From Desulfobacteraceae bacterium 4572_35.2 (GTDB taxonomy: Bacteria; Desulfobacterota; Desulfuromonadia; Desulfuromonadales; Desulfuromonadaceae), in contig NBLY01000005.1 in NCBI GenBank assembly GCA_002084665.1, positions 1 through 34,693 of the forward strand: DNA of 34,693 nucleotides, given 5' to 3'. Below, piece after piece: positions 6,746 through 32,271 of this stretch; within the stretch, counting starts at the first letter, position 1, and every line of letters starts with the position of its first letter. Both the position numbers and the translations under genes were made by a program. The notes below the pieces were generated by a model. That model did not search any database. It worked only from the letters and a program-made list of their open reading frames with translations, and was not told the DNA's origin.

Positions 6746-6748
6746 TTG

Positions 6749-8053
6749 ATGGAGTTAACCTATTTTTCAACGGATAACCCACAACAGATACGCCGCTGCC
6801 AAGATCAACTGTTGCGCGATCATGTTCAGTATAGTTTGAGCCATTCCTCTTTCTACCAGCAGGTGTTTCAGCGCCTCGCTCTCACTGGCGAAGATATCAA
6901 CGGCTATGATGATCTGATTAAAATACCACTAACCACCAAGGCTGACCTTGAGGGGTGTGAAAATGATTTTTTGGCTGTTGCTGAAGATCGAATTGCCGAC
7001 ATCTGTTTAACATCGGGAACGACGGGGCTACCAGTGTCTTTCTATCAGACCAGTTTAGACCTTGATCGTTTAGCTTTAAATGAAGAGATCGCGTTTCGCA
7101 CCGCTGGAATTCGGCGTGATGATCGGGTGTTGATCGCTGTCGCCATTGATCGTTGCTTTATGGCGGGGATGGCCTATTTCCTCGGCCTCAAGCAGATAGG
7201 TGCTACGGCGATTCGTGGTGGGTCGAGTTCGGTAGCGGTGGTGGCGCAATTAGTTCAGCGTTTTCGGCCAACGGCAATTGTCGGAGTGCCCACTTTTTTC
7301 TTGGCCTTAGCCGAGCGTCTTCGCGGCAACGGTATCGATCCTGCCTCGTGTGGTATTAAGCGTTTGATCTGTATTGGTGAGCCGGTACGTCAGGCCGATC
7401 TGTCGTTGTCGGTGCTCGGTCAACGGTTGGTGGATTGTTGGCAAGCGCCAGTGTTTGGTACTTATGCCAGTACCGAAATGGCAACCACGCTGAGTGATTG
7501 TTCACACGGTCAAGGTGGTCACTTGCCGCCTGAGTTGATGATGGTTGAGGTGCTCGATGATGATGGTCAGCGCATCACCGATGGCCGCCCCGGTGAGGTG
7601 GTAGCCACACCGTTGCAGGTAACGGGAATGCCACTGTTGCGTTTTCGTACTGGTGATATTGCCACGCTTTACACTGAATCATGCCGTTGTGGGTTAACCA
7701 GTCAACGGATTGGCCCCATTCTGGGGCGCAAAAATCAGATGCTTAAATACCGTGGCACGACGGTTTATCCTCCCGCTATTAGTGCGGTATTGCAGGAGAT
7801 CGAGGCGGTTACGGCGTATTATATAGAAGTGTATGATGATTTTGCTTTGTCAGACCGTATTAAAGTGGTGGTGGGTTGTGTTGATGACTCAATTGATAGC
7901 CACCACATAGCCGAGCGTATTTCAGCACGAATTCGGGTGAAACCTGAAGTCGAAATTGCTGATTTGGACGCGGTGCGGCGTAAAATTATCAGTGAAGATA
8001 AACGGAAACCAGTTACGTTTTTTGATCATCGCACGACATCGGTGTGTTGTTAA
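6749..8053 (+). CDS. PaaK-like AMP-forming acyl/aryl-acid ligase
   Basis: ANL-superfamily adenylating enzyme most like phenylacetate-CoA ligase, about 434 residues. The ATP-loop LTSGTTGLPVSFYQT is near residue 86. FGTYASTEMATT serves as the aryl-binding/A5-type motif, FRTGDIATL is the A7-type motif, and a Cys cluster (SCRCG) follows. Position directly before the aromatic ammonia lyase implies it activates 4-coumarate (or cinnamate) for loading on CoA or ACP as the aryl starter; this is inference. E. coli-type aryl-polyene clusters instead activate 4-hydroxybenzoate. GAAGGA stands ten bases before ATG 6749 (in-frame TTG 6746 is an alternative). Confidence 0.8.
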   Translation: MELTYFSTDNPQQIRRCQDQLLRDHVQYSLSHSSFYQQVFQRLALTGEDINGYDDLIKIPLTTKADLEGCENDFLAVAEDRIADICLTSGTTGLPVSFYQTSLDLDRLALNEEIAFRTAGIRRDDRVLIAVAIDRCFMAGMAYFLGLKQIGATAIRGGSSSVAVVAQLVQRFRPTAIVGVPTFFLALAERLRGNGIDPASCGIKRLICIGEPVRQADLSLSVLGQRLVDCWQAPVFGTYASTEMATTLSDCSHGQGGHLPPELMMVEVLDDDGQRITDGRPGEVVATPLQVTGMPLLRFRTGDIATLYTESCRCGLTSQRIGPILGRKNQMLKYRGTTVYPPAISAVLQEIEAVTAYYIEVYDDFALSDRIKVVVGCVDDSIDSHHIAERISARIRVKPEVEIADLDAVRRKIISEDKRKPVTFFDHRTTSVCC

Positions 8054-8075
8054 TTTGCAATGAAGGGTGTTTGAT

Positions 8076-9533
8076 ATGTCTACAAAAAAAACAGTTGTCT
8101 TAACGGGGTGTGATCTCACCGTTGAACAGATTATTGCCGTTGGCGTTGGTGACCTCAATGTTGCACTTGATGAGCAGGCGTTGCAACGTTGTCGCGAAAG
8201 TCGCGAGTTTTTAGAGAATGCGGTGGAGCAAAAGCATGTCATCTATGGCGTGAATACCTCCTTTGGTCCCATGTGTAACAAAATTATCGACAACAATTCT
8301 CTTAAGGCGTTGCAGGTCAACCTTATCCGTAGCCATGCGGCCGGCTTAGGTGACCCGTTAAAGCCCTATGTTGCTCAAGCGGTGATGTTGATCCGTTTGA
8401 ATACCCTGGTTAAGGGCTACAGTGGTGTTCGCTTTGAACTGCTTGAATTTATGCAGTGGATGATCAACAACGACATCGCGGCTTATATTCCTGAGTGCGG
8501 CAGTGTTGGCGCCTCGGGTGATCTGATCCATCTGGCTCACCTTGGTTTAGGGATTATCGGCGAAGGTAATGTCTATTATCAAGATCAGTTACGCCCAGCA
8601 GCAGAGGTGTTTGCCGAATTGGGACGAAAGCCGATTCGCCTGAGTTACAAAGAGGGTATTGCCCTCATGAATGGCACCAGTGCCATGACAGCGTTGGCGG
8701 CCTTTGCCATCTATGGGGCGAAAAAGCTGCTGCGTGTCAGTTATGTGACTGGTGCTTTTGGTATTGAGCTGTTTGGTGGTATTGATGATGCGTTTGATGT
8801 TGATCTGCACGATGTTAAGCCCCATCCAGGTCAGTTGGAAACGGCACAGACCATTCGTAACCTTTATCAAGGCTCTACTAACATCACCCGGCGCGAAGAT
8901 ATGCACGATCAGATTCGTGAGCAACATCAGGATGGTTTGGTGTTTGAAACCACCATCAACGTCCAGGATGTCTATTCGATCCGCTGCACACCGCAGGTTC
9001 TCGCACCGGTAACCGAGATGATTGCGGCAGCAACACGCACGGTTGAGATAGAAGCGAACTCATCGAATGATAATCCTATTATCATCCCGAAGAAAAAGAA
9101 GATCATTCACGGTGGTAATTTTCACGGCCAAAGTATCGGTTTTGCCTTTATGGGCGCGCAATATCTGGCTACCTCAACCACCGCTGAAAATCGTCAACTC
9201 GCTAACCCTGTGAGTACCAACAGTATCTCGTGTAACGCCTCCAATCAAGATGTGGTGAGTATGGGAACCATTGCCGCACGCAAGGCGTTCCGTTTGGTGA
9301 GCAATGCCAAGCATATTTTGACCATGGAAGTGTTAGCCGATCTCCAAGCGCTGTCGTTTCGTAATGCTGCTGGTCTTGGTGGTGGTACCGCAAAAATTTA
9401 TGCGTTACTCAATAAAGATTTCGAAGTGTATGACAATAATCGTGTATTTCATGATGATTTGGTCAAGTTGCGTAAGACACTGTTCTCAAGTCAAATATTT
9501 GATGATCTGACTCAATACTGGCAGACAAGATAA
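8076..9533 (+). CDS. Aromatic amino acid (tyrosine-type) ammonia lyase, MIO enzyme
   Basis: Member of the HAL/PAL/TAL family, 485 residues. The MIO prosthetic group forms from Ala146-Ser147-Gly148 (GSVGASGDL). The catalytic Tyr57 is in VIYGVNTSFGP. The selectivity-loop position reads RSH (Ser86-His87), as in histidine lyase but also in flexirubin-associated tyrosine lyases. The HAL-specific Glu of NQED is Gln here (SNQDVVSMG), as in PAL/TAL, which argues against histidine as substrate. It likely converts tyrosine to 4-coumarate and ammonia for the polyene head group. Length matches the bacterial family (about 500). ATG 8076, with AAGGG eight bases upstream, is preferred to GTG 8067. Confidence 0.85.
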   Translation: MSTKKTVVLTGCDLTVEQIIAVGVGDLNVALDEQALQRCRESREFLENAVEQKHVIYGVNTSFGPMCNKIIDNNSLKALQVNLIRSHAAGLGDPLKPYVAQAVMLIRLNTLVKGYSGVRFELLEFMQWMINNDIAAYIPECGSVGASGDLIHLAHLGLGIIGEGNVYYQDQLRPAAEVFAELGRKPIRLSYKEGIALMNGTSAMTALAAFAIYGAKKLLRVSYVTGAFGIELFGGIDDAFDVDLHDVKPHPGQLETAQTIRNLYQGSTNITRREDMHDQIREQHQDGLVFETTINVQDVYSIRCTPQVLAPVTEMIAAATRTVEIEANSSNDNPIIIPKKKKIIHGGNFHGQSIGFAFMGAQYLATSTTAENRQLANPVSTNSISCNASNQDVVSMGTIAARKAFRLVSNAKHILTMEVLADLQALSFRNAAGLGGGTAKIYALLNKDFEVYDNNRVFHDDLVKLRKTLFSSQIFDDLTQYWQTR

Positions 9534-9534
9534 T

Positions 9535-9966
9535 ATGGAGAATGTTACGTCACAATTACCTTTATCAGCACTCACGCTGCTGCCACATCGACCGCCAATG
9601 ATCCTTGTCGATCAGTTGGTCGAATTTGAAGTAGGGCAGGGACGCGTTTCAGCAACGGTTGATGCAAAGGATCTGTTTGTTACTCAAGATGGCACCTTGG
9701 AGAGCGTTGTGTTGATAGAGTTGGTCGCTCAAAGTTATGCCACCATCAAGGGCTATGCTGACCTGATCAATCAGCGTTCAGTACAGCGCGGTTTTTTGGT
9801 CGGTAGTCGCACCTTTAAAGTGTTGCGTTGCCCCCATGTTGGTGAGTCGTTAATGATTGATATTACCACCGTTGCCGAGTTGGATAGTTTTTCAGTGATC
9901 AATGGTGTCATACGGGTTGGTGATGAAGTGATTGCCGAAGGGAGTGTTAAGTTATGGTTGCCCTGA
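9535..9966 (+). CDS. Hotdog-fold 3-hydroxyacyl-ACP dehydratase (FabZ/ApeP-like)
   Basis: Small hotdog protein of 143 residues. LLPHRPPMILVDQLVE carries the FabZ-type N-terminal PHRxPM pattern with the candidate catalytic His near residue 18. The central helix ESVVLIELVAQSYATIKGY holds the acidic partner, as in FabA/FabZ. It should dehydrate 3-hydroxyacyl-ACP during elongation. Aryl-polyene systems use two unlike dehydratases that can pair (ApeI and ApeP); the second is at 13699. It begins 2 nt after the lyase stop and overlaps the LolA-like gene by 13 nt. Confidence 0.8.
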   Translation: MENVTSQLPLSALTLLPHRPPMILVDQLVEFEVGQGRVSATVDAKDLFVTQDGTLESVVLIELVAQSYATIKGYADLINQRSVQRGFLVGSRTFKVLRCPHVGESLMIDITTVAELDSFSVINGVIRVGDEVIAEGSVKLWLP

Positions 9967-10601
9967 AATGGTGTTTAACGCTGTTGCTGTGGCTTAGTAT
10001 CACCTTACCCGCTATGGGTTGGACGACTGAAGTTGCTCTGAGTGCTGAAGTAACGCAGCGCCTCGCTGTTGCCGCGCAACAGGTCGAAACATTACACAGT
10101 GATTTTGTCCAAGAAAAATACCTGAGTATATTTGAAGAAAAATTGATCTCAACGGGGCAGTTTTATTATCAAAAACCAGATCAGCTACGTTGGGAGTTGT
10201 TGGAGCCGGTTGGTTCAGGTTTTGTCATTACTGGTGATTCAGGTCAACGCTGGCATGAGCGCATTGACGGTAGTGAATCATTTAAGCTCGATCAAGACCC
10301 GGCCATGGCACTGATTGCAGAGCAATTGTTTGCGTGGGCAAAAGCCGATTTAGCATGGATAAAGCAAAACTACACCATCAGTGTGGTGAGTGAACAGCCG
10401 ATACAACTGAAGCTGGTTCCCCTTGAAGCGGCGGCACAATTTCTCAGTCATTTAATGATCACTTTTAACGATAGCGATCGCTATGTGGTCGCCGTTGAAA
10501 TACATGAAAGTGATGGCGATTCGACTCGAATCAACTTTAACAACTCTGTGGTAAATAGTGAAATAAACGACGCTATTTTTAGCGATAGGTGTTTAAAGTA
10601 G
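9954..10601 (+). CDS. LolA-like periplasmic outer-membrane lipid/lipoprotein carrier
   Basis: Secreted protein of 215 residues with a signal peptide (MVALKWCLTLLLWLSITLPAMG). The mature part has the LolA-like pattern VETLHSDFVQEKYLSIF..LISTGQFYYQKPDQLRWEL. In aryl-polyene clusters this type sits next to the MMPL exporter and probably shuttles the polyene lipid across the periplasm; chromosomal LolA carries lipoproteins. The 13-nt overlap with the dehydratase and the immediate abutment to the exporter support coupled expression. Confidence 0.85.
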   Translation: MVALKWCLTLLLWLSITLPAMGWTTEVALSAEVTQRLAVAAQQVETLHSDFVQEKYLSIFEEKLISTGQFYYQKPDQLRWELLEPVGSGFVITGDSGQRWHERIDGSESFKLDQDPAMALIAEQLFAWAKADLAWIKQNYTISVVSEQPIQLKLVPLEAAAQFLSHLMITFNDSDRYVVAVEIHESDGDSTRINFNNSVVNSEINDAIFSDRCLK

Positions 10602-13010
10602 ATGTTCGTAACTTTGTATGAACTGTTAGCTAAACGCTCTGGTTTGTTGCTGCTTAGTTACGCTGTTTTTGCCGTACTAAGTGTGAGTTGTATTCTCTTT
10701 ATTCAGCAAAGTGAGAATATCGAGTCGTTATTACCCGATACAGCTGGTACTGAAGTTCGGCGAGATTTTAATTGGCTCCAAAAAGCGCCCTTTGCTCGTA
10801 AGGTGCTGATTGATCTTCATGCACAGCCCGAAGTGACCGCCGAGCAATTAAAAGAGACGGCGTTAACGCTGCATGGTGCCGTGACCCCTTTTTTTACCAA
10901 AGTGTTAAGTGGCCCACCATTGGAGGTGCAGCATAACTTGCCGGCGTTGTTGTTACAGGCGTTGCCTAATCTGGTTAGCGAAAACGATTTAATGGTCATT
11001 GAACAGCGCTTACAGCAACACAGCATTCGCCAACAATTAACCCAACTACGTGAACAACTATTTACCCCACAAGGGTGGATGACCAAGCAGCAGCTGCAAC
11101 GCGATCCGTTAGCGTTGTGGCAGATTAGTGCCGGCCATTTACGCCATCTAAATCCGATGGCACATTCGGATCAACAGCAACGCGATTTTGTCAGTCGCGA
11201 TGGCCGCCATCGCTTAATTGTCGCCGATACCGATATTGCCATTGGTGATGTGATTGCCGGTGGCAAATTGATGGATCAAGTGCAGCAGTGTGTTGATCTT
11301 TACGTACCAGCGGGGATCACTGCCACGGTAATCAGCGGTCACCAGTATACCATTGCCAATGCGCGTACCATTCAGCGTGATCTACGGGTGGTGCTCGGTG
11401 TGTCAACTGTTGCCATTTTGCTGATTTTTATTTTGGCCTTACGCAGTTGGCGCGCGTTGTTTGTGTTTATGTTGCCCGCTTCGGTATTGGGTTTTTCAGC
11501 CGCAACGGTGTCGCTATTTTTCCCAACAGTATCGGGAATCACCATTGGCTTTGGTGCGGTGTTGCTCGGCATAACGGTTGATTTTACCTTGCATGTGTAT
11601 TTTTCATTGCGCCACAGCGGTCAGCCGCAACAACAATTACGCCGCTTAACCCCGCCGTTGATCGGGGGGGCGTTAACCAGCTTTTTAGCCTTTAGTGTGT
11701 TGTTGGCATCATCGCTACCCGGTCAGCGTCAATTAGCCGTTTTTTCCATGACAGCGATTATGCTGGCAGCGTTGCTGGCCTTGATTGTTATGCCCCACCT
11801 TTGTGGCCGTAGTGATAAACGGCACCATCACAGCTGTGATGATTCAGTACCATTACCGCAACGGGGCAAGGGGGTTGTTGTCATTTGGGTGTTGGTGATG
11901 CTGCTGTGCGCCGTGGCGGCACCACAGCTCCAGTTTGACGGTGATATGCGTAGTTTGAGTGTGTCGACTCCGTCATTACGTGCCGGCGAGCAACAGTTAC
12001 GCCAGGTTTGGGGCAACATGCGTAGCAGCGCGTTGTTGTTTGCCCGCGGTGAAACTCTCGATGAAGCGCTGGTGGTAAACGATGAGATCTATCGCGTGGT
12101 GGCGGGACAACAAAGTATTGCTGATCCTGAAAAACCGCCGCACCTTGTCAGTTTAGCCAGTATTTTGCCGTCGCCACAGCAGCAACAACGTAGCCGTGAA
12201 TTGTGGCATAAATTCTGGCTAAAGCATCAACAGCGGCTTGTCGAACGGTTACAGCAACAGGGCGGCGAGATCGGCTTTTCATCTTCGGCTTTTAAGCCGT
12301 TTATCTCTTGGCTTAATCAGCCGACTGCTGGCGTTGACCTTAACTTTTGGCACCAAGCAGGTTTTACTGACGCAATGAGCGGCTTGATGATTGATGATTC
12401 GAGTTCAACCTCAGCTACAAGTGGGGTGGCCTTAATCTCATTGATTGACGAAACTGAATTGACTCCACAGCTACAACAGCAGTTGGCTGCCGTTGATAAT
12501 ACCATTGTCATTGCCCAAGGGATTTTTCGTCAGCAATTGAGTCAGGCGTTAGCTCACGATTTTATCCGTTTTATCATCATGGCGTTAGTGGTAGTGGTGG
12601 CGGTATTGGTTGTTTGGTATCGGCGTCTCTCGTCGGTGCTGTTAGCGTTGCTGCCTGTTGGTAGCGGCATGCTGTTTATGTTTGGCGCAATGGGCTGGTT
12701 TGGATTAAGTTTTAATCTGTTTAACGTGATTGCTGCGATCCTAATTATTGGTTTGGGGGTCGATTACGGTATTTTTATGCTCAGTCGTTGCGATGGTAGT
12801 GGCTGTCAACAATCTGAACATGCGGTGTTGGTGTCAGCGTTAACCACCTTGGCCGGTTTTGGCTCATTGGTGTTGGCCCAACATCCAGCAATGCACTCCA
12901 TTGGGGTGACGGTACTGTTTGGTATTAGTGCTGCGGTGCTAACGGCGTTGTGCGTTGTGCCAGCGATCTATCAACGCTTAAATCGTGAGCAAAGCGGTGG
13001 TGAAAGATGA
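10602..13010 (+). CDS. MMPL/RND-family exporter
   Basis: Inner-membrane exporter of 802 residues with the RND plan: one N-terminal transmembrane helix (LLSYAVFAVLSVSCILFI), a periplasmic loop to about residue 260, a block of helices to about 395, a second helix near 425, a second loop, and a final helix block from about 650. Charged residues within membrane helices, GITVDFTLHVYF and GLGVDYGIFMLSR, are the putative proton-relay Asp residues. Expected to export the polyene lipid toward the LolA-like carrier. Same position and partners as in aryl-polyene clusters. Start ATG directly follows the LolA-like stop. Confidence 0.9.
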   Translation: MFVTLYELLAKRSGLLLLSYAVFAVLSVSCILFIQQSENIESLLPDTAGTEVRRDFNWLQKAPFARKVLIDLHAQPEVTAEQLKETALTLHGAVTPFFTKVLSGPPLEVQHNLPALLLQALPNLVSENDLMVIEQRLQQHSIRQQLTQLREQLFTPQGWMTKQQLQRDPLALWQISAGHLRHLNPMAHSDQQQRDFVSRDGRHRLIVADTDIAIGDVIAGGKLMDQVQQCVDLYVPAGITATVISGHQYTIANARTIQRDLRVVLGVSTVAILLIFILALRSWRALFVFMLPASVLGFSAATVSLFFPTVSGITIGFGAVLLGITVDFTLHVYFSLRHSGQPQQQLRRLTPPLIGGALTSFLAFSVLLASSLPGQRQLAVFSMTAIMLAALLALIVMPHLCGRSDKRHHHSCDDSVPLPQRGKGVVVIWVLVMLLCAVAAPQLQFDGDMRSLSVSTPSLRAGEQQLRQVWGNMRSSALLFARGETLDEALVVNDEIYRVVAGQQSIADPEKPPHLVSLASILPSPQQQQRSRELWHKFWLKHQQRLVERLQQQGGEIGFSSSAFKPFISWLNQPTAGVDLNFWHQAGFTDAMSGLMIDDSSSTSATSGVALISLIDETELTPQLQQQLAAVDNTIVIAQGIFRQQLSQALAHDFIRFIIMALVVVVAVLVVWYRRLSSVLLALLPVGSGMLFMFGAMGWFGLSFNLFNVIAAILIIGLGVDYGIFMLSRCDGSGCQQSEHAVLVSALTTLAGFGSLVLAQHPAMHSIGVTVLFGISAAVLTALCVVPAIYQRLNREQSGGER

Positions 13011-16362: not shown

Positions 16363-16459
16363 TCCATTCTTAAGTCTCTGCGATCACTCGTTTAGATTAA
16401 AGCCGACATTGTGGTATTGGAAAAGAGCAGTCTGGAGCTGGAAAAAAGGTGCTGGAGTA

Positions 16460-18778: not shown

Positions 18779-20157
18779 TGAGTCGCGTGTTTATTCTGTC
18801 GAGCAATGTATCCACAGATCCGTATCCGGTGTATCCACTCGGGATGGCGATCATTGCTTCAGTACTTGAAGAGCAGGGCCATGAGGTGAAGCAGTATGAC
18901 TTTCTCGTTCACGAGCAATCATATCCTGCCTTAGCTGAAGCGTTGTCTGTATATCAACCCGATTTCGTTTTGATGTCATTGCGCAATATCGATAATGTTG
19001 ATTCTTTTAGTTCTGATGACAACTGGTATCTATCCGATGCTCGTAAACTGGTGACGGAGATTAAAACCCGTGTTGATGTGCCGGTGATTGTCGGTGGCCC
19101 CGCCTTTTCAATTATGCCTGAAAAAATTCTCGCCTATATCGGTGCCGATTACGGTGTGGTTGGTGAGGGGGAACAGGTTGTCGCCCCTTTGGTCGCGGCA
19201 TTAGAGCGCGGCGAAACGATTGACTCGCTCCACAGTAGCGCACAACCGTTGACAGGGATACAGATGAAAGGGGCAACATTGGTTCCTGAGTATGTCGATT
19301 TTTATCAACAAAAAAGCGGTATGATTAATCTGCAAACCAAGCGTGGTTGTCCGTTTCGCTGCGTCTATTGTACCTATCCGGGGCTGGAAGGTAATTGTTT
19401 CCGTCCGCGTGAAGTGGGTGCGGTTGTCGATGATATTGAACGGATGCAGCGTGATTATGGCACCAATCATCTATTTTTTACCGACTCCATCTTTAACGAC
19501 AGTCAAGGTCATCACCTTGAATTAGCCGAGGAGATGATTCGGCGCAAGGTCGGTATTAAATGGTGCTCTTTCTTTCGTCCCCAAGGGATCACCGCCGAAA
19601 GCCTAGCGCTGCTCAAACGTTCAGGGTTGTACGCGATGGAGATGGGAACTGATGCGGGTTGTGATCGCACTATGGCCGGGATTAATAAGTGCTTTACTTT
19701 CGAAGAGGTGCTCCGTTGTCACAAGCTTACTGTTGAGGCAGAAATCCCTAGTGCTCATTTTATTATGTTCGGTGGCCCGAATGAAACGCCAGATACGATT
19801 CATGAAGGTTTGAAGAATATAGAACAACTCGATCACAGTGTGGTGTTTGCCTTTTCAGGGATTCGTATTCTGCCTAAATCAACATTGCTAGAGTGTGCTG
19901 TGGCGGATGGTGTTGTGGCTGCGGATGTTGATCTGCTTAAGCCGGTCTATTACCTTTCGCCTGATATCGATCAAGAGTGGATGAATCAGGAAATCTTAAA
20001 CTCCTTTTCGGGCCGCAGAGATCGAATTTTCCCGCCATCGGCTGGTCAAGAACAGATGGCGATGATGAACAATTTTGGTTTTAAAGGCATTTTGTGGGAT
20101 CAAATGGTTTCATTCGGTAACGCACCCAAACGTAAGAGAGCCCGTCGAAATGGTTAA
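18778..20157 (+). CDS. Radical SAM protein 2 (B12-binding-type)
   Basis: 459 residues. N-terminal cobalamin-type domain: YPVYPLGMAIIASVLEEQGHEVKQYD, VPVIVGGPAFSIMPEKIL, ADYGVVGEGE. Radical SAM motif CPFRCVYC (Cys191, Cys195, Cys198) after TKRG. FMFGGPNETPDTI is the usual beta-strand motif late in the barrel. The basic C-terminus KRKRARRNG may be surface exposed. Start ATG overlaps the previous TAA by one base. The product cannot be predicted; a tailoring step on a polyene, acyl or lipid chain is inferred from context. Confidence 0.88.
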   Translation: MSRVFILSSNVSTDPYPVYPLGMAIIASVLEEQGHEVKQYDFLVHEQSYPALAEALSVYQPDFVLMSLRNIDNVDSFSSDDNWYLSDARKLVTEIKTRVDVPVIVGGPAFSIMPEKILAYIGADYGVVGEGEQVVAPLVAALERGETIDSLHSSAQPLTGIQMKGATLVPEYVDFYQQKSGMINLQTKRGCPFRCVYCTYPGLEGNCFRPREVGAVVDDIERMQRDYGTNHLFFTDSIFNDSQGHHLELAEEMIRRKVGIKWCSFFRPQGITAESLALLKRSGLYAMEMGTDAGCDRTMAGINKCFTFEEVLRCHKLTVEAEIPSAHFIMFGGPNETPDTIHEGLKNIEQLDHSVVFAFSGIRILPKSTLLECAVADGVVAADVDLLKPVYYLSPDIDQEWMNQEILNSFSGRRDRIFPPSAGQEQMAMMNNFGFKGILWDQMVSFGNAPKRKRARRNG

Positions 20158-21622
20158 GCGTCCACGCATACTTTTAGTGCATCCTCTCGGTTATGCTAGC
20201 GATAAAGCGGGCGGTGATGTGTCGCGCTTAGCGAACATTATGCCACCCCTCGGTTTGGCGGCGATTGCGGCCTATCTGTTAGAGCGTGATGTCGATGTGG
20301 ACATTATCGACTGCTATGCCTTTCCCGATTCTGATCAGCGTATTATTGATTATGTGCGCACGTATAAGCCAGCATGGCTAGGTTTAAGCTGCACCACCTC
20401 AAGTTTTCTTGACGGGGTGCGCATCGCTCAACTCGCCAAGGCTGAACACCATGAACTACAGGCAGTGGTCGGTGGCGCGCATGTGTCGGCATTAAAAGAA
20501 CAACTGCTGGATGATTATAGTGATCTTGATGCGTTGATTGTCGGTGAAGGGGAGGAGACTATGTATCAACTTCTCTCGACCGAAGCTGCGCAGTGGCCAA
20601 GTTTGGCGGGTGTTGTTTGCCGTGATTCCTCAGGCTGTGCAACCTTTAGCGGCTACCGCAAGCCAGCACTTGACTTGGATAGCCTGCCGTTCCCCGCTTA
20701 TGACAAGTTGACAGGTTTTCCCGAAGCGTATCAGTTGCCCATTTTTAATTACCCTAAGGCTCCTAATACCAGCTGTATCTCCAGTCGTGGTTGCCCTTAC
20801 GCCTGTAGTTATTGTGATCGCTCGGTGTTTCAGCGCACCTTCCGCTTTAATTCAGCCGAGTACCTCTACGCGCACATGAAGTTTTTGCGCGACAAGTATA
20901 ATATCCGCCATATCAACTTTTACGATGACCAGTTTACCTTTCATCGTCAGCGGGTGCTCGATGTCACCAAGATGATGATTGATAAACCTCTCGGCATCAC
21001 CTTCAACTGTGCTATCCGCGCCGAACATGTTGATGATGAGTTGATTGGCCAAATGAAAAAAGCTGGTTGTTGGATGATGAGTTTAGGCATTGAGACGGGT
21101 GATCCCGACCTGCTGGCTCAGCATCGGCAAAATCCTGATTTAGATATGCTCGCCGACACCATTCGCTTAATCAAAAAGCATGGTATTCGCGTTAAGGGGT
21201 TGATGATGGTCGGTTTGCCGGGTGAAACTGAGCAAAGTATCCGCCGCAGTATGGATTATATTTTCAAGCTGCCGATTGATGATCTCAATGTGGCCAAATT
21301 TACGCCTTTTCCCGGTTCACCGCTGTATGAGAATATCCATGAGTTGGGTACTTTTAGCGAGGATTGGGCGCAGATGGATTGCATGGGCTTTCAATTTGTC
21401 ACTCATGGTATGACCGAAGAGAAGCTCGAATCGTTGTTTGCAAATTTTTATCGCGCCCATTTTCACCGTCCCGAAGTGTTATGGGGCTATGTGGCCATGC
21501 TGTGGAAATCGCCCCATAGTTGGTGGCGATTTGTTAAAAACCTCACCGGTTTTCTCTCCTTTATTAAGCGTGGCAAGCGGATAAGCGATGGCGAAACAGC
21601 AGGGGGAGATGGTGACAAGTAA
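20150..21622 (+). CDS. Radical SAM protein 3 (B12-binding-type)
   Basis: 490 residues from ATG 20150. B12-type domain: IMPPLGLAAIAAYLLERDVDVDIID, AVVGGAHVSALKE, ALIVGEGEETMYQL. Radical SAM motif CPYACSYCD (Cys215, Cys219, Cys222). Later MMSLGIETGDPDLL and GLMMVGLPGETEQSI are typical of BchE-like/P-methylase-like members. The C-terminal part beyond about residue 400 is an extra region ending in a basic tail. ATG 20150 overlaps the previous stop by 8 nt and is preferred to the track start 20075, which lies deep in the previous gene. Confidence 0.88.
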   Translation: MVKRPRILLVHPLGYASDKAGGDVSRLANIMPPLGLAAIAAYLLERDVDVDIIDCYAFPDSDQRIIDYVRTYKPAWLGLSCTTSSFLDGVRIAQLAKAEHHELQAVVGGAHVSALKEQLLDDYSDLDALIVGEGEETMYQLLSTEAAQWPSLAGVVCRDSSGCATFSGYRKPALDLDSLPFPAYDKLTGFPEAYQLPIFNYPKAPNTSCISSRGCPYACSYCDRSVFQRTFRFNSAEYLYAHMKFLRDKYNIRHINFYDDQFTFHRQRVLDVTKMMIDKPLGITFNCAIRAEHVDDELIGQMKKAGCWMMSLGIETGDPDLLAQHRQNPDLDMLADTIRLIKKHGIRVKGLMMVGLPGETEQSIRRSMDYIFKLPIDDLNVAKFTPFPGSPLYENIHELGTFSEDWAQMDCMGFQFVTHGMTEEKLESLFANFYRAHFHRPEVLWGYVAMLWKSPHSWWRFVKNLTGFLSFIKRGKRISDGETAGGDGDK

Positions 21623-23911: not shown

Positions 23912-25642
23912 ATGATTATTAAAGATTTAACGCTATTAAATTTTCGCCGATTTACTTTGTTCGACATCTCTTTTGACTCAAAGATGACTGTAATTGTTGC
24001 TCGTAATGGACAGGGTAAAACTTCTATATTAGATGCTGCTACAGTCGCTTTAGGTACTTTTGTTGGCGCTTTTGATATGGGGAGAGCAAAACATTTCTCT
24101 GTTAATGATGCGCGTTATTTGCGGTTGCCTGATAGTCCCGAAAGTGAACAGCAATACCCAGTTTCTGTCATCTCATCTTTTGATGAGCCTGATATCTCAG
24201 GAACCCGTGTGTTGTCCGGTAAAAAAAATAAAACGACAATTAAGGACGCAAAAGAGATTACAGATTATGGAAAAGTTTTGATGCAACAAATTCGTGACCT
24301 TGATAGTGTTGCATTACCTGTTGTTGCTTATTACGGATCAGGCCGACTTTGGAATGTTCACAAGAATATGTCTCGTAAGGCTGTTGTTAGTGAGAGTCGT
24401 ACACTCGGTTACGAAGATTGTTTGTCACCTGCTTCTAATTTTAAACAAGTTCAACAGTGGATGGCAAAGGCCACCTATGCAATGGCACAACATCAGGAGA
24501 TGTCTGAGTATAGTAATTATAAATTTCCAGGCCAAATTAAAGGTATCAAGACTGTTGTTGATAAAATGCTAAACGAAGAAGGTTGGAGTAGATTTCACTA
24601 TAGTATGATTCATGAAGAGTTAACTATGTATCACGATACATATGGTATTTTACCTGTCAGCTTACTTAGTGATGGTGTTCGTTCAATGGTTTCTCTTGTG
24701 GCAGACCTTGCTTGGCGTTGTGCTAAATTAAATCCCCAGCTTGGTGAAGAAGCTCCAGATAAAACACAAGGGATTGTTTTTATCGATGAAGTTGATTTGC
24801 ACTTACATCCAAGCTGGCAACAAAGAATAATTGAAAACCTGCAAGATGCTTTCCCTCGTATTCAATTTATTGTCACGACCCATAGTCCTCAAGTGTTATC
24901 TACTGTACCAAAAGAGTGTATCCGTGTTTTGGGCTCTAATACAGAAGGGGCCACAATCGCAGCGGTTCCTAAAGCATTTTCTTACGGCGAACCCAGTAAT
25001 GATATTCTGCAAGCAATCATGCATGTTGACCCACAGCCGCCAATACCTGAAAAACAAGAACTCGATTTGTTAACATCGTTAGTTGATCAAGGTGATTATA
25101 AGTCAGAAATTGTGGGCCAACTATTGTGTAAATTGAAGCAGCAATTAAACGAAAACCATCCACAAATTATTAAGAAAGCTAATAATGCACCGCCGACAAC
25201 TAGTAAAGGGGCGCAAAGTAGGTGGAAAGGTTTTAAAAAACATAAACCTTCTTTATCGCAGAAATTAAATGGAGAGCAATTTGGATTGTGTGCTTACTCT
25301 GAAATTCGTTTTGATCTGTACTCTCTGGGAACACATGTCGAACATGTCGTGCCAAAAAACCAAGCTCCACAGAGAACCTTTGATTATCACAATTTAGTTT
25401 TGAGTGCCTTGTCAAGTGATGATCTCCATACAATGAATTGCAAAGATGTTTTTGCAGGTCATGCAAAATCAAGTGAATATGATGCTGCACTCTTCATTTC
25501 TTGCTTGCAAGTTGATTGCGCTAGCTTTTTTGTTTATCTCTCTACTGGCAAAGTAGAACCTAAAAACCAATTGACAGAAAAGGTACGGAAAAAAGCGCAA
25601 TATACAATTGATATATTGAACCTGAATAGCCAAATGGATTGA
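23912..25642 (+). CDS. Septu-like ATPase-HNH fusion (PtuA-PtuB type), 3' end frameshifted
   Basis: Anti-phage defence protein candidate, 576 residues in this frame. Residues 1-about 410 are a PtuA-like AAA/SMC-type ATPase: Walker A ARNGQGKTS near residue 32, VVAYYGSGRLW, the LLSDGVRSMVSL signature-like region, Walker B GIVFIDEVDLHLHP and TTHSPQVLS. Residues about 420-576 are an HNH nuclease of the PtuB/TIGR02646 type: GLCAYSE, THVEHVVPK, DYHNLVLS. In Septu and Ec78-like retrons these are separate proteins, so a single chain is unusual. The frame stops after LNLNSQMD, but KWIDELDQLIDE continues in the next frame, suggesting that the true C-terminus was displaced by an indel. AT-rich, probably acquired. 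Confidence 0.7.
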   Translation: MIIKDLTLLNFRRFTLFDISFDSKMTVIVARNGQGKTSILDAATVALGTFVGAFDMGRAKHFSVNDARYLRLPDSPESEQQYPVSVISSFDEPDISGTRVLSGKKNKTTIKDAKEITDYGKVLMQQIRDLDSVALPVVAYYGSGRLWNVHKNMSRKAVVSESRTLGYEDCLSPASNFKQVQQWMAKATYAMAQHQEMSEYSNYKFPGQIKGIKTVVDKMLNEEGWSRFHYSMIHEELTMYHDTYGILPVSLLSDGVRSMVSLVADLAWRCAKLNPQLGEEAPDKTQGIVFIDEVDLHLHPSWQQRIIENLQDAFPRIQFIVTTHSPQVLSTVPKECIRVLGSNTEGATIAAVPKAFSYGEPSNDILQAIMHVDPQPPIPEKQELDLLTSLVDQGDYKSEIVGQLLCKLKQQLNENHPQIIKKANNAPPTTSKGAQSRWKGFKKHKPSLSQKLNGEQFGLCAYSEIRFDLYSLGTHVEHVVPKNQAPQRTFDYHNLVLSALSSDDLHTMNCKDVFAGHAKSSEYDAALFISCLQVDCASFFVYLSTGKVEPKNQLTEKVRKKAQYTIDILNLNSQMD

Positions 25643-26140: not shown

Positions 26141-26395
26141 ATGACATTGAAAGAACAAATTAAGAAAATTTTGATTGAAGATCTAAATCTTGAAGATATT
26201 ACTGCTGAAGAGATTGCCGATGATGAGCCGTTGTTTGGTGATGGTTTAGGTCTTGACTCTCTTGATGCGGTGGAGTTGGCCGTGTTGGTGCAAAAAAACT
26301 TTGGTGTTGAAATCAAGGATATGGAAGAGGGTCGACCTGCGCTGCAATCGGTACAAGCGTTAGCTCAATTTATCGAAGATAAGCAAGGAAAGTAA
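26141..26395 (+). CDS. Acyl carrier protein 2
   Basis: 84-residue acidic carrier protein with phosphopantetheine site Ser40 in GLGLDSLDAVELAV. The stretch DDEPLFGDGLGLDSLDAVELAV is like that of ACPs in flexirubin/aryl-polyene and ladderane-like clusters, and differs from ACP1 (LGLDSLDTVDMV). It heads the second operon and precedes a KS/KS-like pair by 3 nt, so it probably serves that pair. Confidence 0.95.
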   Translation: MTLKEQIKKILIEDLNLEDITAEEIADDEPLFGDGLGLDSLDAVELAVLVQKNFGVEIKDMEEGRPALQSVQALAQFIEDKQGK

Positions 26396-26398
26396 TAG

Positions 26399-27589
26399 AT
26401 GGCTAACTCTGTTTGCGTAACTGGCATGGGCTGTTTGTGTGCAGCGGGAGATACCCTCGATGAGGCGGTAACGTCGATGATGGCTGGTGAGCGTCACGCT
26501 GGCGATCCGTCGCTATTTAAGTCGAGCCAGCCACAACTCTTCCCCGTTTTTGCGGTACGTAGTCTGGTGCCTAAAGCTGCGGAAGATGTGTTTTTACGCA
26601 CCAGTCAATTGGCGTTAAATGCCGCAAAACAGGCGGTTGAACAGTCGCAGTGGGATTTGACTGAACTACGTAAGTTGAAGGTTGGTGTCTGTATTGGCAC
26701 CACTGTTGGTTGCACTATGGATGTCGAATCGTTCTATGGTGATTATCGTAACGGTCAAGATCCTGAAATGCTCGCCATCGACTGTTTTGTTGAGAGTAAC
26801 CCTGCTACGGTAATTAGTCGTCATTTCGGTTTGAATGGCCCTTGTCAAACCATTGTTAATGCCTGCTCGTCAGGAACCGATGCTATCGGTATGGGCGCGA
26901 TGTGGATCGAGAATGGTCTGTGTGATGTGGTTCTTGCTGGCGGTGCTGATGAACTGTGTCGTACCACCTATAACGGCTTTGCCTCGTTGCAAATCAACGC
27001 TGCAGTGTTGAGTCGGCCCTTTTCTGCGGATCGTTGTGGTTTAAATCTCGGCGAAGGGGCTGCTGTTTTAATTCTTGAATCTGAAACAGTGCGTCAGCAA
27101 CGGCAACATGTTGTCGCTCAAGGTTATGTTCTCGGCTACGGCAGTGGTACCGACGGCTGGCACTTGACGGCACCTCATCCTGAGGGGCGTGGTTTGAAAC
27201 AAGCTTTGCAGGAAGCCTTAGACAGGAGTGGTGTTGAGCCTGACCAGCTGGCTTTTGTTAACACCCACGGTACGGGAACCAAGGACAATGATCGCGTTGA
27301 AAGTTTGGTGCTCGCTGAACTATTACCGTCGACACCGTTTCATTCAACCAAAGGCTATACCGGTCACGCGTTAGGCGCTGCTGGGGCTCTTGAAGCCGCT
27401 TTTTGTTTAGCTTTTTTGCGTCAGCGACAGATCCCCGCCAGTGCTGGTTTTACTGGTCAAGACCCTGAGTTTAGTGTGACTCCGGTGGTGGAAAATAGTG
27501 CTGTTGTCGGCGATATTGCCCTGTCAGAATCATTGGCCTTTGGTGGTAATAATGCCGTCCTTATTTTGGCCAGAGGAGAGATGGCATGA
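26399..27589 (+). CDS. Beta-ketoacyl-ACP synthase (KS) of the second operon
   Basis: 396-residue condensing enzyme. TGMGCLCAAGDTLDEAV opens the fold. Cys156 is in NACSSGTDAIGMG, His in NTHGTGTKDND, Lys/His in STKGYTGHALGAAGALE, and the C-terminus is LAFGGNNAVLIL. Complete by motif. It forms an ATGA-type overlap with a Cys-less KS homologue, the arrangement of a KS-alpha/KS-beta pair, and follows ACP2 closely. Substrate unknown. Confidence 0.9.
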   Translation: MANSVCVTGMGCLCAAGDTLDEAVTSMMAGERHAGDPSLFKSSQPQLFPVFAVRSLVPKAAEDVFLRTSQLALNAAKQAVEQSQWDLTELRKLKVGVCIGTTVGCTMDVESFYGDYRNGQDPEMLAIDCFVESNPATVISRHFGLNGPCQTIVNACSSGTDAIGMGAMWIENGLCDVVLAGGADELCRTTYNGFASLQINAAVLSRPFSADRCGLNLGEGAAVLILESETVRQQRQHVVAQGYVLGYGSGTDGWHLTAPHPEGRGLKQALQEALDRSGVEPDQLAFVNTHGTGTKDNDRVESLVLAELLPSTPFHSTKGYTGHALGAAGALEAAFCLAFLRQRQIPASAGFTGQDPEFSVTPVVENSAVVGDIALSESLAFGGNNAVLILARGEMA

Positions 27590-28683
27590 CACTTTTAAAA
27601 CAGTCGATGGCGATTCAGGGGATTGGTTGCGTTGGCGGCTTTGGCAGTGGCAATGATCAGTTTGTCAGTGCTTTAAAAGCGGGCCATACCAGTGCAACAA
27701 CCGTCGAACTCAATCACCCTGCGGGGCAACAAACCCTACCGGCGTTATTGGCTAACACCGATCGTTTAACGGATTTTGTCTCTCGGCGTTCATTGCGTCG
27801 CATTGATCATTTTTCGCGCATGGCTCTTCTCGGTGGCTACTTAGCCATTGAGGATGCTGGGCTTGCTGTTGAAGACTGTGGCCGTATTGGGATTATTGTT
27901 GCTAGTGGTTATGGGGCGACCAATACTACCTTTAACTTCCTCGGCTCGATCATTGACGACGGCGATAGTTGCGCGTCGCCAACCAGTTTTTCAAACTCTG
28001 TCCATAACGTTGCTGCGGCATATTTATCGATGCAATTGCAGGCACTCGGTCCCAACCTGACGATCAGCCAGTTTGATCTGTCGATTAACGCAGCGCTACA
28101 TAATGCTGCCTGTTGGTTGGCGCAGAGACGTGTTGATACCGTGCTTGTTGGCGGTGTAGATGAACATAGTTCGTTGCTCAATTATTGCTATCAGCGCTAT
28201 TTTGCCAATTCTGATGCGGTCGAGCAGATTGATCCATTTGATTTTGCTCGTCAAAGTGCGGTGGTGGGTGAAGGGGCCGCGTTTTTGGTGCTCAGTCGTC
28301 ATGCTGATAAGGCAAAATATGGTTTTATCGCTGGCCTCGATGCTGGAGATTTTAGCCAGCGTAGCACAGTTGAAGATAGTGATTTACTCCTTATCGGAGC
28401 TGATGGACATCAGACCTGTGGCGCAATGTATGAGCAATTGCCCACAGCGCAGTCGCTACTCAATTGCACGCCGTGCTATGGCAGTCTACCTGTTGGTCAA
28501 GCCTTTGATTTGGCTGCGGCTGGGCTGATGTTGCGTGAGCAAAGCTGTTATGGTGTTGCCCGACAGCAACCTGTTGGTTGTTCGGCTCAGAGTTCTTTTG
28601 ATTCGATTGCGTCACTTAAGTGTACGGCGAACGATCAATTCAGTTTAATCCGCTTATCTCGGCGTGGGGGTGATGATGCGTGA
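27586..28683 (+). CDS. KS-like protein without active-site Cys (chain-length-factor-like)
   Basis: 365-residue ketosynthase homologue. KS-like pieces: IQGIGCVGGFGSG, RRIDHFSRMALLGGYLAIEDAGL, GIIVASGYGATNTTFNFL, SPTSFSNSVHNVAAAYLS, DPFDFARQSAVVGEGAAFLVLS. The nucleophile region reads ISQFDLSINAALH, so the catalytic Cys is absent, and the HGTGT and KxxxGH motifs are also not recognisable. This is the pattern of a chain-length factor/KS-beta partner for the preceding KS. It appears complete, overlapping both neighbours. Confidence 0.8.
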   Translation: MTLLKQSMAIQGIGCVGGFGSGNDQFVSALKAGHTSATTVELNHPAGQQTLPALLANTDRLTDFVSRRSLRRIDHFSRMALLGGYLAIEDAGLAVEDCGRIGIIVASGYGATNTTFNFLGSIIDDGDSCASPTSFSNSVHNVAAAYLSMQLQALGPNLTISQFDLSINAALHNAACWLAQRRVDTVLVGGVDEHSSLLNYCYQRYFANSDAVEQIDPFDFARQSAVVGEGAAFLVLSRHADKAKYGFIAGLDAGDFSQRSTVEDSDLLLIGADGHQTCGAMYEQLPTAQSLLNCTPCYGSLPVGQAFDLAAAGLMLREQSCYGVARQQPVGCSAQSSFDSIASLKCTANDQFSLIRLSRRGGDDA

Positions 28684-29110
28684 ACAGGATGTGCCGCAAG
28701 ATATCGGCGTATTGGAAGAAAACAGAGTTGTCGCTTATGCTGTTGATGAACAGGGGAACTACTGCCTGACCACCACTGCGGGCTGGGATCCTGTCAACGA
28801 AGCCAATCGTATTGCATGGGAAGATATTAAAGAGCAACTGGATGAGGTGCGAGTGAAAATCGAGGCGGGTCGGGCCAGTATTTTAGCCTATTATATGACT
28901 CGTGCGCAAATGGATCGCTCATTGTTGGCCAGCTATTCAGGCATATCATCATGGCGTGTGTGGCGTCACTTGAAACCTGGGCCATTTAACAAGATTAGTG
29001 CAGAAGATCGTCAGAAATACGCCAATCTTTTCCGTATTTCATCAGCGCAACTGTTTCAGTTGCCTGCCGCCGATTCGCTGCCAACTGAAACAACAACGGA
29101 TACACTTTAG
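28676..29110 (+). CDS. Uncharacterised HTH-like protein between KS and BtrH-like genes
   Basis: About 144 residues, no family name I can assign with certainty. The C-terminal half has a short helical stretch MDRSLLASYSGISSWRVWRHLKPGPF that looks like a helix-turn-helix (LLAsYSGisxWrVxRHL), followed by EDRQKYANLFRISSAQLFQL, a pattern seen in XRE-type DNA-binding folds. The N-terminal half is acidic (QEVxxDIGVLEENRVV-like, GWDPVNEANRIAWEDIKEQLDEVRVKIEAG). It could be a cluster regulator or a small structural partner of the BtrH-like protein. ATG 28676 overlaps the KS-like stop by 8 nt; GTG 28664 is the longer option. Confidence 0.6.
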   Translation: MREQDVPQDIGVLEENRVVAYAVDEQGNYCLTTTAGWDPVNEANRIAWEDIKEQLDEVRVKIEAGRASILAYYMTRAQMDRSLLASYSGISSWRVWRHLKPGPFNKISAEDRQKYANLFRISSAQLFQLPAADSLPTETTTDTL

Positions 29111-29147: not shown

Positions 29148-30185
29148 GTGATAGGTCATGATTTTCCTCATCAACAATCGGCACATTGTGAAACTGGTGC
29201 AGCGGCCAGTTTACTGCGTCAAGCTGGATTAAACCTATCCGAGGCGATGGTGTTTGGTATTGGCGGTGGCTTGTTTTTCGGCTATGTACCATTTGTTAAG
29301 CTCAACGGTTTTCCCTTGATGACATACCGTTGTCGGCCCGGCGGTATTTTTAGCCGTTTGACCAAGAGTTTGCAATGTGAAGTAAAGCAACAAAAATATC
29401 GTAATAAAGAGCAGTCGATGATTGAGCTCGATCAGATGCTCGAACAGGGGTTAGTCGTTGGTTTGCAAACCAGCGTGTTTTGGCTCCCCTATATCCCCCC
29501 CGCATTACGTTTCCATTTTAATGCTCACAATCTCATCGTGGTGTCGAAGCAGGATCAGCGTTACTTGATCAGTGATCCGGTTATGCCTGAGCTTGTTTGG
29601 TGTGATAAAGAAGACCTAGTTAATGCGCGCTTTGCTCAGGGTGCTTTGGCACCAAAAGGGCGCTGTTATACTCTCCATTCGCCTAAGGTGACGGATCTAC
29701 GTCAGCCTGTTTTAAAAGGGATTCGGACTGTGTGTCGCGATATGTTGGCACCGATCCCCATTGGAGGTGTGCGTGGCTTACGCTTTATGGCGCGCAGTAT
29801 GCGCGGCTGGCAAAAGAAATATGGTAAACGTCGTTCATTGTCATGCTTAGCCCAGTTAATTCGGATGCAAGAGGAGATTGGTACCGGTGGGGCTGGCTTT
29901 CGCTTTATCTATGCCGCTTTTTTACAGGAAGCGGCAACGCTATTTGATGAACCTCAGCTTGAACAATTAGCCCAACGTCTCACTATTATTGGTGATCAAT
30001 GGCGTGAGTTTGCTTTGCAGGCCACTCGTTGCTGTAAGGGCCGCGCTGAGGTGACCTTTGACGGCTTGGCACAGATGATTGAGACCAATGCTGATATTGA
30101 AGAACAGTTTTTTCGTGAATTACGTCAGCTTGAGCGTCAACTTGGTCGTAAGCTTAAAAAGTCTGTTCAGGAAGTAAGTAGTTGA
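29148..30185 (+). CDS. BtrH-like acyltransferase (butirosin BtrH N-terminal family)
   Basis: 345 residues. The opening HCETGAAASLLRQAGLNLSEAMVFGIGGGLFFGYVPF matches the BtrH N-terminal (Cys-peptidase-like) domain, with nucleophile Cys14 next to His13; FHFNAHNLIVV with DPV may give the catalytic His/Asp. The C-terminal part is the helical DUF4872-like region. BtrH moves an acyl group from a carrier protein to an aminoglycoside. Here, among two ACP genes, KS genes and an ABC exporter, it may transfer the chain from an ACP to an amine or hydroxyl acceptor (inference). GTG 29148 with GGAG ten bases upstream. Its stop overlaps the following ABC gene. Confidence 0.8.
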   Translation: MIGHDFPHQQSAHCETGAAASLLRQAGLNLSEAMVFGIGGGLFFGYVPFVKLNGFPLMTYRCRPGGIFSRLTKSLQCEVKQQKYRNKEQSMIELDQMLEQGLVVGLQTSVFWLPYIPPALRFHFNAHNLIVVSKQDQRYLISDPVMPELVWCDKEDLVNARFAQGALAPKGRCYTLHSPKVTDLRQPVLKGIRTVCRDMLAPIPIGGVRGLRFMARSMRGWQKKYGKRRSLSCLAQLIRMQEEIGTGGAGFRFIYAAFLQEAATLFDEPQLEQLAQRLTIIGDQWREFALQATRCCKGRAEVTFDGLAQMIETNADIEEQFFRELRQLERQLGRKLKKSVQEVSS

Positions 30186-30771
30186 GTTTGCAGCCGTTAT
30201 TACGCGCTGAAGCGCTCGTTAAACGTTATGCTGGTATGGGGCAGCCTGCGGTTAAGTCCTTTGATTTCGAGCTGCAACGTGGTGAGTTTGTCGGACTTCT
30301 CCAACATTGACCCTACGCGAAAACCTAACCTTTTGGGGTCGCCTCTATGGAGTTCGTGGTTCATTGCTGAAGCAGAGAATTCAGCAAAGTAGTGATTTTG
30401 TTGGGTTAGCAGAGGTGTTAGATCAAACCATCGCCACCTATTCTGGCGGGATGAAACGTCGTGCTAACCTCGCTGCTGGTATTCTGCATCAACCTGAACT
30501 GCTCTTTCTCGATGAGCCGACGGTGGGAATTGACGCTCAGTCTCGTCACCAGATTTTGGATAACTTACGTCAATTGAACCGTGACGGCATGACCATGGTT
30601 TACACCACTCACTATATGGAAGAGGTCCATCAGTTGTGCTCACGGGTGATCATTGTTGACGCTGGTGAGATCGTAACTCAGGGTGATGTTGCTCAATTAC
30701 TTAGTCAGTATGAGTGTACCCACCTTGAAGACCTTTTCTTGAAACTTACTGGCAATCAATTGCGAGATTAA
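30182..30771 (+). pseudogene. ABC transporter ATPase lacking Walker A (internal deletion with frameshift)
   Basis: ATP-binding subunit of an ABC-2 type exporter. From TTG 30182 (TTGA overlap with the BtrH-like stop) the frame reads LLRAEALVKRYAGMGQPAVK ... GEFVGLL and stops at 30309. A second frame continues at about 30304 with LTLRENLTFWGRLYG, the signature YSGGMKRRANLAAGIL, Walker B LLFLDEPTVGID and the switch His TTHYMEE. About 55 residues between these parts, including Walker A GPNGAGKTT and the Q-loop, are missing. As written it cannot bind ATP normally. Both flanks are conserved, so this is a recent deletion or an assembly error. Confidence 0.8.
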
Positions 30772-31981
30772 ATGAATCCTTCAGCGAACGTGAATTTTTT
30801 TTATCAACTTCTAGCAGTATTCATCAAGGAGTTGCATCTGTTGCGTCGTGATCGGGGCGGGCTGGCTGTCCTCTTTATCATGCCCGTTGCCTTAGTACTT
30901 ATTGTGTGTTTGGTTCAGGATAATATTTTAAAAGTAAGTGGTGCGACCACCGTCAAAATGGTGTTGGTTGATCATGATCAAGGCACTATTGGCAAAGCTT
31001 TTATTGAACAGTTAAGCGCTACAGGTAGCTTCGATCTCAGTGTTTTTGATCAAGAGATGAGCTTTGAACGTGCAAAAGAGATGGTCAGTGACGGCGTTTG
31101 GCAAGTTGGTGTTTATCTTCCTGTGGCGGCTTCAGAACAGCTAAAGGGGGCGATTGATATTCAGGTTAAAGCGGCTATGACTGCTAAAACTGATGACTTG
31201 AGTGCGGAGAATCTGTCCCATGTTTCAATGGGGTATTTTTTTGATCCAGCTGTTCAGGGCGGCTTGCCAAGTGTTGGCACAGAAACCGTTTGCGCTCCAT
31301 TTTCCTGCTGATGAAACCTCTTTGTTTCAAGCTGTGCAGCTTAATGCCAAAGATATTGTCGTTACGCCAACATCCATTCAGCACAATGTTCCAGCGTGGT
31401 CTCTGTTTGGTATCTTCTTTATCATCCTGCCGTTGTCAGGGGTAATTTTACAGGAGCGTGACCAGGGGGTATTTACCCGTTTGCTTTTAGTGCCGGGTCA
31501 ACAATTTGGTTTATTGTTTGGTCGGCTATTTGCCTACTTATCTCTCAATATAGTGCAGTTTAGCTTGATGTTGTTGATCGGTTTTTTTATTTTACCATTA
31601 CTCGGTACCGATGTGTTGCAGTTGAACGGTAAAGGATTATCGTTCTTTGTCGTAGCATTGTGTTCAGGATTAACGGCATGTGGTTTTGGTTTGTTGTTGG
31701 GTGTTGTTGCTAAGAGTCAACAGCAAGCCACCCTGACAGCAGCTGTTGCTATTGTTATCTCAGCGGCACTTGGCGGCATCATGGTTCCTGTTTATATGAT
31801 GCCGTCAGTGATGCAATCTTTAAGCGTTGTCTCACCTTTAGGTTGGGGTTTAGAAGCCTTTCAGATTTTATTATTGCGAGGGGGAACATTACACGATATC
31901 TTGCCGCAACTATTTGCCATGTTACTTTGCTTTGCACTGTGTGTTTTGGTTTCATGGCGGCAATTACGTTATCTGAAGTAA
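30772..31981 (+). pseudogene. ABC-2 type transporter permease, frame broken near 31260
   Basis: Membrane subunit paired with the preceding ATPase. The first frame (30772-31311) has the N-terminal cytosolic part and helix (LAVLFIMPVALVLIVCLVQ), then a periplasmic domain with DPAVQGGL. Near 31255-31275 the coding frame changes; the second frame (entering near 31265) runs QVLAQKPFALHFPADET and five C-terminal helices (WSLFGIFFIILPLSGVIL, FFILPLLG, GLTACGFGLLLGVVAKS, IMVPVYMMPSVM) to 31981. The expected stretch after DPAxQGxxxS is shortened, so some residues are missing. Likely substrate: the acyl/polyene product of this operon (inference). Confidence 0.75.
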
Positions 31982-32001
31982 TCTAATCAAGGAGTATGCC
32001 A

Positions 32002-32271
32002 GTGATGGATCAAGATCCAATTTATCAAGAACTGCAAAATGTAATTACTGAAGCATGTCATATTTTTGAAGATATTCCTGATACCATTGACCCTGATAGT
32101 GCGCTCATCGGCCCAGATTCGCCTTTGGGCCTGGATTCGTTGGATGCGGTTGAGGTCGTTGTTGCGATTCAAAAACATTATGATGTTCGTATCGGTGGAC
32201 AGCAATCGGGCCGAGAGGCTCTTGAGTCGCTACGCACCCTCGCTAATTATATTAAATCGAACCCCTCATAG
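32002..32271 (+). CDS. Acyl carrier protein 3
   Basis: About 89-residue carrier protein with phosphopantetheine Ser46 in LGLDSLDAVEVVVAIQ. Its acidic N-terminal part is longer than in ACP1 and ACP2 (ITEACHIFEDIPDTIDPDSALIGPDSP). GGAG at 31991-31994 is too close to ATG 31996 but well spaced for GTG 32002 or ATG 32005, so I use 32002. Last gene of the second operon, after the BtrH-like gene and the exporter; BtrH-type enzymes take their acyl group from a dedicated ACP, which this may be. Confidence 0.9.
   Translation: MMDQDPIYQELQNVITEACHIFEDIPDTIDPDSALIGPDSPLGLDSLDAVEVVVAIQKHYDVRIGGQQSGREALESLRTLANYIKSNPS

Follow-up and report, generated by a model that had tools for sequence, protein, structure and literature searches.

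The segment at 29148-32271 of the window (the whole analysed stretch of 34,693 nucleotides) contains a BtrH-family gene, the two genes of an ABC-2 transporter and a gene for an acyl carrier protein (ACP). Pfam matches and site checks confirmed that these genes are real and follow each other in the order given by the initial annotation. The segment belongs to a flexirubin-like pigment cluster of a desulfuromonad-type bacterium, where it makes up the conserved DarG-DarH-transporter-carrier block. Such a block is already a named kind, and it is new in its host, not in its kind. The AF2 model of DarG reached a pLDDT of 83 and its helix-turn-helix matches were weak. Further genes in the window encode ApeP/ApeI-like dehydratases, several ketosynthases (KS) and ACPs, a glycosyltransferase and an acyltransferase. 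The ammonia-lyase probably supplies the starter of the polyene.

Table 1. Features of the dar block and of the polyene half of the cluster, in window coordinates.
Feature	Position	Strand	Evidence or remark
FlxY-like aryl-CoA ligase, polyene half	6746..8053	+	NF053551 470 bits, cut-off 520
Aromatic amino acid ammonia-lyase, FlxA/TAL-like	8067..9533	+	PF00221; NF053541 409 bits, cut-off 700
LolA-like carrier and MMPL exporter, polyene half	9954..13010	+	
ACP (ACP2), ahead of KS pair	26141..26395	+	PF00550; 86% identity to L002
FabF-like ketosynthase of dar block	26399..27589	+	
Chain-length-factor-like KS partner	27586..28683	+	
darG	28664..29110	+	NF053536 DarG_fam 128.7 bits (cut-off 70); small protein, predicted C-terminal helix-turn-helix-like domain
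darH (BtrH-like gene)	29148..30185	+	BtrH_N and DUF4872 acyltransferase, putative catalytic Cys14-His127-Asp143
ABC-2 transporter ATPase, broken as assembled	30182..30771	+	two-frame tblastn to L003/L002/L115
ABC-2 transporter permease, broken as assembled	30772..31981	+	134 nt missing and frame change
ACP (ACP3)	31996..32271	+	PF00550; Ser of GLDSLD (DSL site) intact

The BtrH-like protein matched the Pfam families BtrH_N (PF14399) with 155 bits (cut-off 29.7) and DUF4872 (PF16169) with 178 bits. It also scored 460.1 bits against the NCBIfam model NF053550, "BtrH-related acyltransferase DarH", for which the equivalog cut-off is 300. As NF053550 names the BtrH-like protein exactly, the gene is a member of an already named family. 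Proteins with weaker similarity to DarH (60-186 bits) were treated as a different subfamily and excluded from the counts. BtrH from butirosin biosynthesis has the BtrH_N domain in common with DarH, above the Pfam cut-off, but BtrH acylates an aminoglycoside and DarH stands in a different pathway.

The AF2 model of DarH (pLDDT 90.3, pTM 0.89) displayed a papain-like fold with an extra C-terminal domain (Foldseek TM 0.61-0.66). In Foldseek searches with this model AziU3, CtaG and CcbD were matched over the full length with E-values from 2e-10 to 9e-7 and TM scores of about 0.6-0.66 over about 340 columns. When DarH (phmmer) and a profile of 38 DarH sequences were run against PDB sequences, coiled-coil noise only and no true relative was returned, and with the profile no match to CcbD, CtaG or AziU3 was detected at E <= 10. 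The relatives being undetectable by sequence, structure comparison was needed for DarH. Cys14, which had been named in the initial annotation, was invariant in the 38 aligned DarH sequences, as were His127 and Asp143. The spacing of 16 between His127 and Asp143 is the same as between H128 and D144 of CtaG, where the cysteine is C11. DarH thus resembles CcbD/LmbD, CtaG and AziU3 in its full-length fold and its Cys-His-acid residues, and a carrier protein probably serves as its donor; it differs from CcbD, CtaG and AziU3 in sequence (13-17% identity, no detection by sequence profile). The modelled fold and the invariant Cys-His-Asp support the earlier suggestion that a cysteine enzyme may carry out ACP-dependent acyl transfer here.

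Among the weaker fold matches of DarH were C39-type peptidase and PCAT1 peptidase domains, and darH adjoins ABC genes, as would be expected if DarH were a C39-like peptidase coupled to an ABC exporter and a peptide were matured during export. We consider this highly improbable, as the peptidase matches covered part of the chain with TM scores of about 0.3-0.36, compared with 0.6-0.66 for the acyltransferases, and the C-terminal DUF4872 was matched by acyltransferases only (Foldseek); nor did a gene for a precursor peptide happen to come to notice.

Both ABC genes are broken in the sequence as assembled. The breaks were located by protein alignment and two-frame tblastn; in a DNA alignment of the ATPase the missing stretch fell into two pieces, and the protein alignment was preferred. 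The ATPase changes frame between its N-terminus (30182-30301) and its remainder (30301-30771), with about 155 nt gone at ~30301; measured against the intact homologue it lacks residues 40-92 and with them Walker A. The permease is split at ~31267. Neither Walker A nor an uninterrupted permease frame, the two features by which we judged whether an ABC-2 exporter could function, was present. The described overlap between the BtrH-like gene and the transporter was confirmed, the TTG start of the ATPase frame at 30182 overlapping the stop codon of DarH, but a working ABC pair was not found as assembled. These breaks had been overlooked initially, and so had the known identity of the dar block (NF053550, NF053536, order of genes in Azoarcus).

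In the same genus or family, both ABC genes were intact in 8/8 loci holding both (L115, L117-L122, L124), and the intact same-genus homologues measured 249 aa for the ATPase and 435-449 aa for the permease. In a genome-wide check, sampled contigs were compared with a complete same-genus genome. Here 68 genes were intact, 9 were frame-changed with an internal loss of >30 nt and 14 were incomplete away from contig ends; the losses in the 9 frame-changed genes were mostly about 130-170 nt. The same check on a control genome gave 35 intact, 0 frame-changed and 1 incomplete gene. Since the relatives are intact and like losses hit the unrelated genes metH and ettA, an assembly artefact is suggested, and we regard an assembly fault rather than decay of the transporter as the likeliest cause. 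Two separate out-of-frame losses in neighbouring ABC genes could also mean that these are true pseudogenes in the strain and that export is performed wholly by LolA/MMPL, which would be compatible with the function of DarH favoured below. Such decay seems unlikely to us, given that about a tenth of the comparable genes in the draft genome are broken alike, against 0/36 in the control genome. Further out-of-frame losses were observed at 1164-1700 and 1874-2935 of the window and at L139 and L149-L152.

DarH loci were compared among relatives in Desulfobacterota and Bacteroidota and in one Verrucomicrobia record; the loci are not independent, because many are from Flavobacterium. DarG was found upstream of darH in 85/85 loci, and downstream of darH the ATPase was present in 81/88 and the permease in 73/80 loci. 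The initial annotation had looked to BtrH-like homologues away from ACP genes as evidence against its proposal. Instead, an ACP gene was located <=8 kb from darH in 59 of 61 loci. An ACP after the permease (<=4.5 kb downstream) occurred in only 22 of 78 loci. The proposed link to ABC-2 and ACP genes was therefore upheld, but not the idea of a dedicated ACP3 behind the permease. The post-permease ACPs of Desulfobacterota, ACP3 included, formed a clade of their own (support 100/98) apart from the ACP that precedes the KS pair, and judged from the 22 of 78 loci the ACP directly after the permease is a lineage-specific feature. Export had further been thought to be separate from the LolA/MMPL route. 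In several relatives, however, MMPL, DarG, DarH, ABC, ACP and KS genes were present in one array, and this arrangement gives no indication of two distinct routes of export. Tandem copies of DarH (two or three), some with their own DarG, were seen at L249 (G312:C112) and L247 (G388:C4), in one family (f49).

A similar arrangement is known from Azoarcus sp. BH72, which produces arcuflavin and carries a dar cluster with the order darA-B-D-E-F-G-H-I-C-J (PMC3949708). The order conserved hypothetical - BtrH-like - ABC ATPase - ABC permease - ACP is common to Azoarcus and the window (PMC3949708), the Azoarcus block holding darE (BtrH-like), the ABC pair and darC together. In Azoarcus, darA and darB are adjacent and a Phd/PilT pair lies inside the ABC pair, whereas in the window KS/CLF genes precede darG. 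At the corresponding place in L121 (G009) a 534-nt insert at 9766-10299 separates ATPase and permease. Compared with the flexirubin/DAR clusters to which NF053550 (DarH) and NF053536 (DarG) belong, the window has both proteins over cut-off and the same neighbours; it differs in the desulfuromonad-type host, the unlinked DarB, DarA not being found and the B12-radical-SAM gene beside DarB.

DarB passed the wider StlD/DarB model, and with the flexirubin-specific models DarB (477 bits, cut-off 550), FlxA and FlxY (Table 1) all stayed under the strict cut-offs. We therefore call the cluster flexirubin-like and not flexirubin; by DarA, too, it falls outside the flexirubin clusters in the strict sense. 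PF13723 was too weak as a polyene marker and also matched the KS partner of the dar block. A Bro-N domain ORF at 16409-17323 of the window is inserted between two genes of the cluster; in relatives from the same genus the gap between these two genes measures about 70-120 nt. At 17510-21622 three B12-binding radical SAM genes in a row precede the glycosyltransferase, an arrangement conserved in the genus. An AAA/OLD-like ATPase ORF is inserted at 23912-25642 between an LpxAT-like gene and an ACP; this insert is missing from most same-genus loci, and G009 has its own 3-kb stretch there.

We surveyed 296 genomes from the phylum to which the window belongs: DarH was present in 26, the dialkylresorcinol synthase DarB in 25 and both in 23 (over cut-offs). 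That 23 of the 26 DarH genomes possess DarB corresponds to p 7e-29, a value that ignores shared ancestry. In this phylum 19 of the 23 DarH-DarB pairs were 1.4-5.5 kb apart. Among 297 genomes of Bacteroidota, DarB was found in all 24 DarH genomes (p 2e-34, shared ancestry again ignored). Three near-complete genomes (G180, G230, G388) had DarH and no DarB above cut-off. DarB without DarH was seen in G156, where a contig end falls inside DarB, and in G221, which has DarA and DarB; around these two genes of G221 a stretch of 20 kb was free of polyene, ABC and KS genes. In the source genome DarB was located on another contig (G000:C53:13173-14312, 565 bits), unlinked to DarH. Heterologous expression of darA and darB suffices for the production of free dialkylresorcinol (DAR) (PMC3992019). 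DarH is thus not needed for the resorcinol and has to act on something other than the making of the ring. We concluded that the modelled fold and the co-occurrence together give good support to DarH as a carrier-protein-dependent acyltransferase tied to DarB.

In the source genome DarB adjoins a gene for a B12-binding radical SAM enzyme (G000:C53:11851-14315, L125). DarA was not detected in this genome (80% complete) or in the complete same-genus genomes G002, G006 and G008, and the positive controls were found. Of the 25 DarB genomes, 8 had an adjacent DarA, 16 a B12-radical-SAM gene, 0 had both and 1 had neither (exclusion p 8e-6, not corrected for shared ancestry). The B12-radical-SAM enzyme is HpnR/BchE-like with about 431 aa; either this enzyme or DarA, never the two together, was noted ahead of DarB in the source genome, G002, G006, G008 and 15 further genomes of the phylum. 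This looks like a possible swap of partners in resorcinol formation, DarA against B12-radical-SAM. A simple reading as an anaerobic replacement was not supported, because heme-copper oxidase genes failed to separate the two groups (5/8 DarA and 9/16 B12-radical-SAM genomes).

We propose, with a probability of roughly 0.6, that the segment serves coupling and export within an aryl polyene-dialkylresorcinol cluster, with DarH esterifying the polyene to DAR and the ABC-2 pair exporting. Family, fold, invariant Cys-His-Asp, gene order, DarB co-occurrence and the intact ABC genes of relatives were observed by computation; we infer thioester, donor ACP, acceptor, type of bond and cargo as follows. 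The polyene half lies upstream in the window, the resorcinol synthase DarB on contig G000:C53. In a ping-pong reaction aided by His127 and Asp143, Cys14 of DarH would first accept the completed aryl-polyene acyl chain from an ACP, forming a thioester; DarH would next hand the chain over to a phenolic hydroxyl group on the dialkylresorcinol, giving an ester. Passage through the inner membrane would then fall to the ABC-2 pair, probably working with LolA/MMPL, the cargo being the whole ester or either half of it. In both flexirubin and arcuflavin a polyene acid is esterified to a dialkylresorcinol, and for this reason transfer of the polyene from ACP to resorcinol is the simplest account. A comparable ping-pong is known from CcbD, which takes a carrier-bound acyl group onto its own cysteine and passes it to an amine, and which accepts fatty acyl groups (PMC12945683). 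For CtaG a transfer of hydroxybenzoate from carrier to carrier has been proposed (PMC6772006). Against the export step stands the transporter, which as assembled could not work.

The solved relatives of known activity, CcbD and CtaG, form amides, as does BtrH, whereas the acceptor of DarH is probably a phenol. The three DarH genomes in which DarB was not detectable, the unlinked DarB in the source genome and the missing sequence-profile link also weigh against the favoured reading. DarH might instead be an N- or O-acyltransferase that acts on a polar acceptor (amine, sugar or lipid head group), with the resorcinol being joined otherwise, and the acyltransferase and glycosyltransferase genes upstream would fit this. 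The initial annotation had likewise suggested a polar acceptor. We regard such an acceptor as rather unlikely, because the co-occurrence with DarB is near-perfect in two phyla and the known flexirubins are without an amine; as DarH tracks the dialkylresorcinol synthase, a phenolic dialkylresorcinol is the likelier receiver of the acyl group.

Alternatively, DarH could shift the chain from one ACP to another or hydrolyse it to the free acid. Papain-fold enzymes are able to hydrolyse, and the block has two different ACPs. The ester would in this case be made by an ATP-dependent ligase like FlxW, the ligase-like enzyme proposed earlier for this step (PMC3992019), a proposal that also counts against direct esterification by DarH. 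The relatives of the DarH fold are condensing enzymes, however, and the cluster already has a thioesterase gene, which makes a role in carrier shift or release improbable in our view.

For esterification by DarH we put forward, tentatively and at somewhat less than even odds, a wider proposal: DarH is the missing flexirubin ester synthase, an enzyme of the BtrH/CcbD kind turned from amide to phenyl ester formation and accompanied near-obligately by ABC-2 genes, and a B12-radical-SAM enzyme replaces DarA in many Desulfobacterota. In the literature covered, the enzyme joining polyene and resorcinol in flexirubin-type pigments has only been guessed at. Its fold and its co-occurrence with DarB in two phyla make DarH a concrete candidate for the joining step. 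If this is true, carrier-protein-dependent enzymes of the papain fold reach from amides to aryl esters. Flexirubin-type pigments serve as a chemotaxonomic marker of Bacteroidota, and the block in desulfuromonad-type genomes carries them into sulfur- and metal-cycling lineages.
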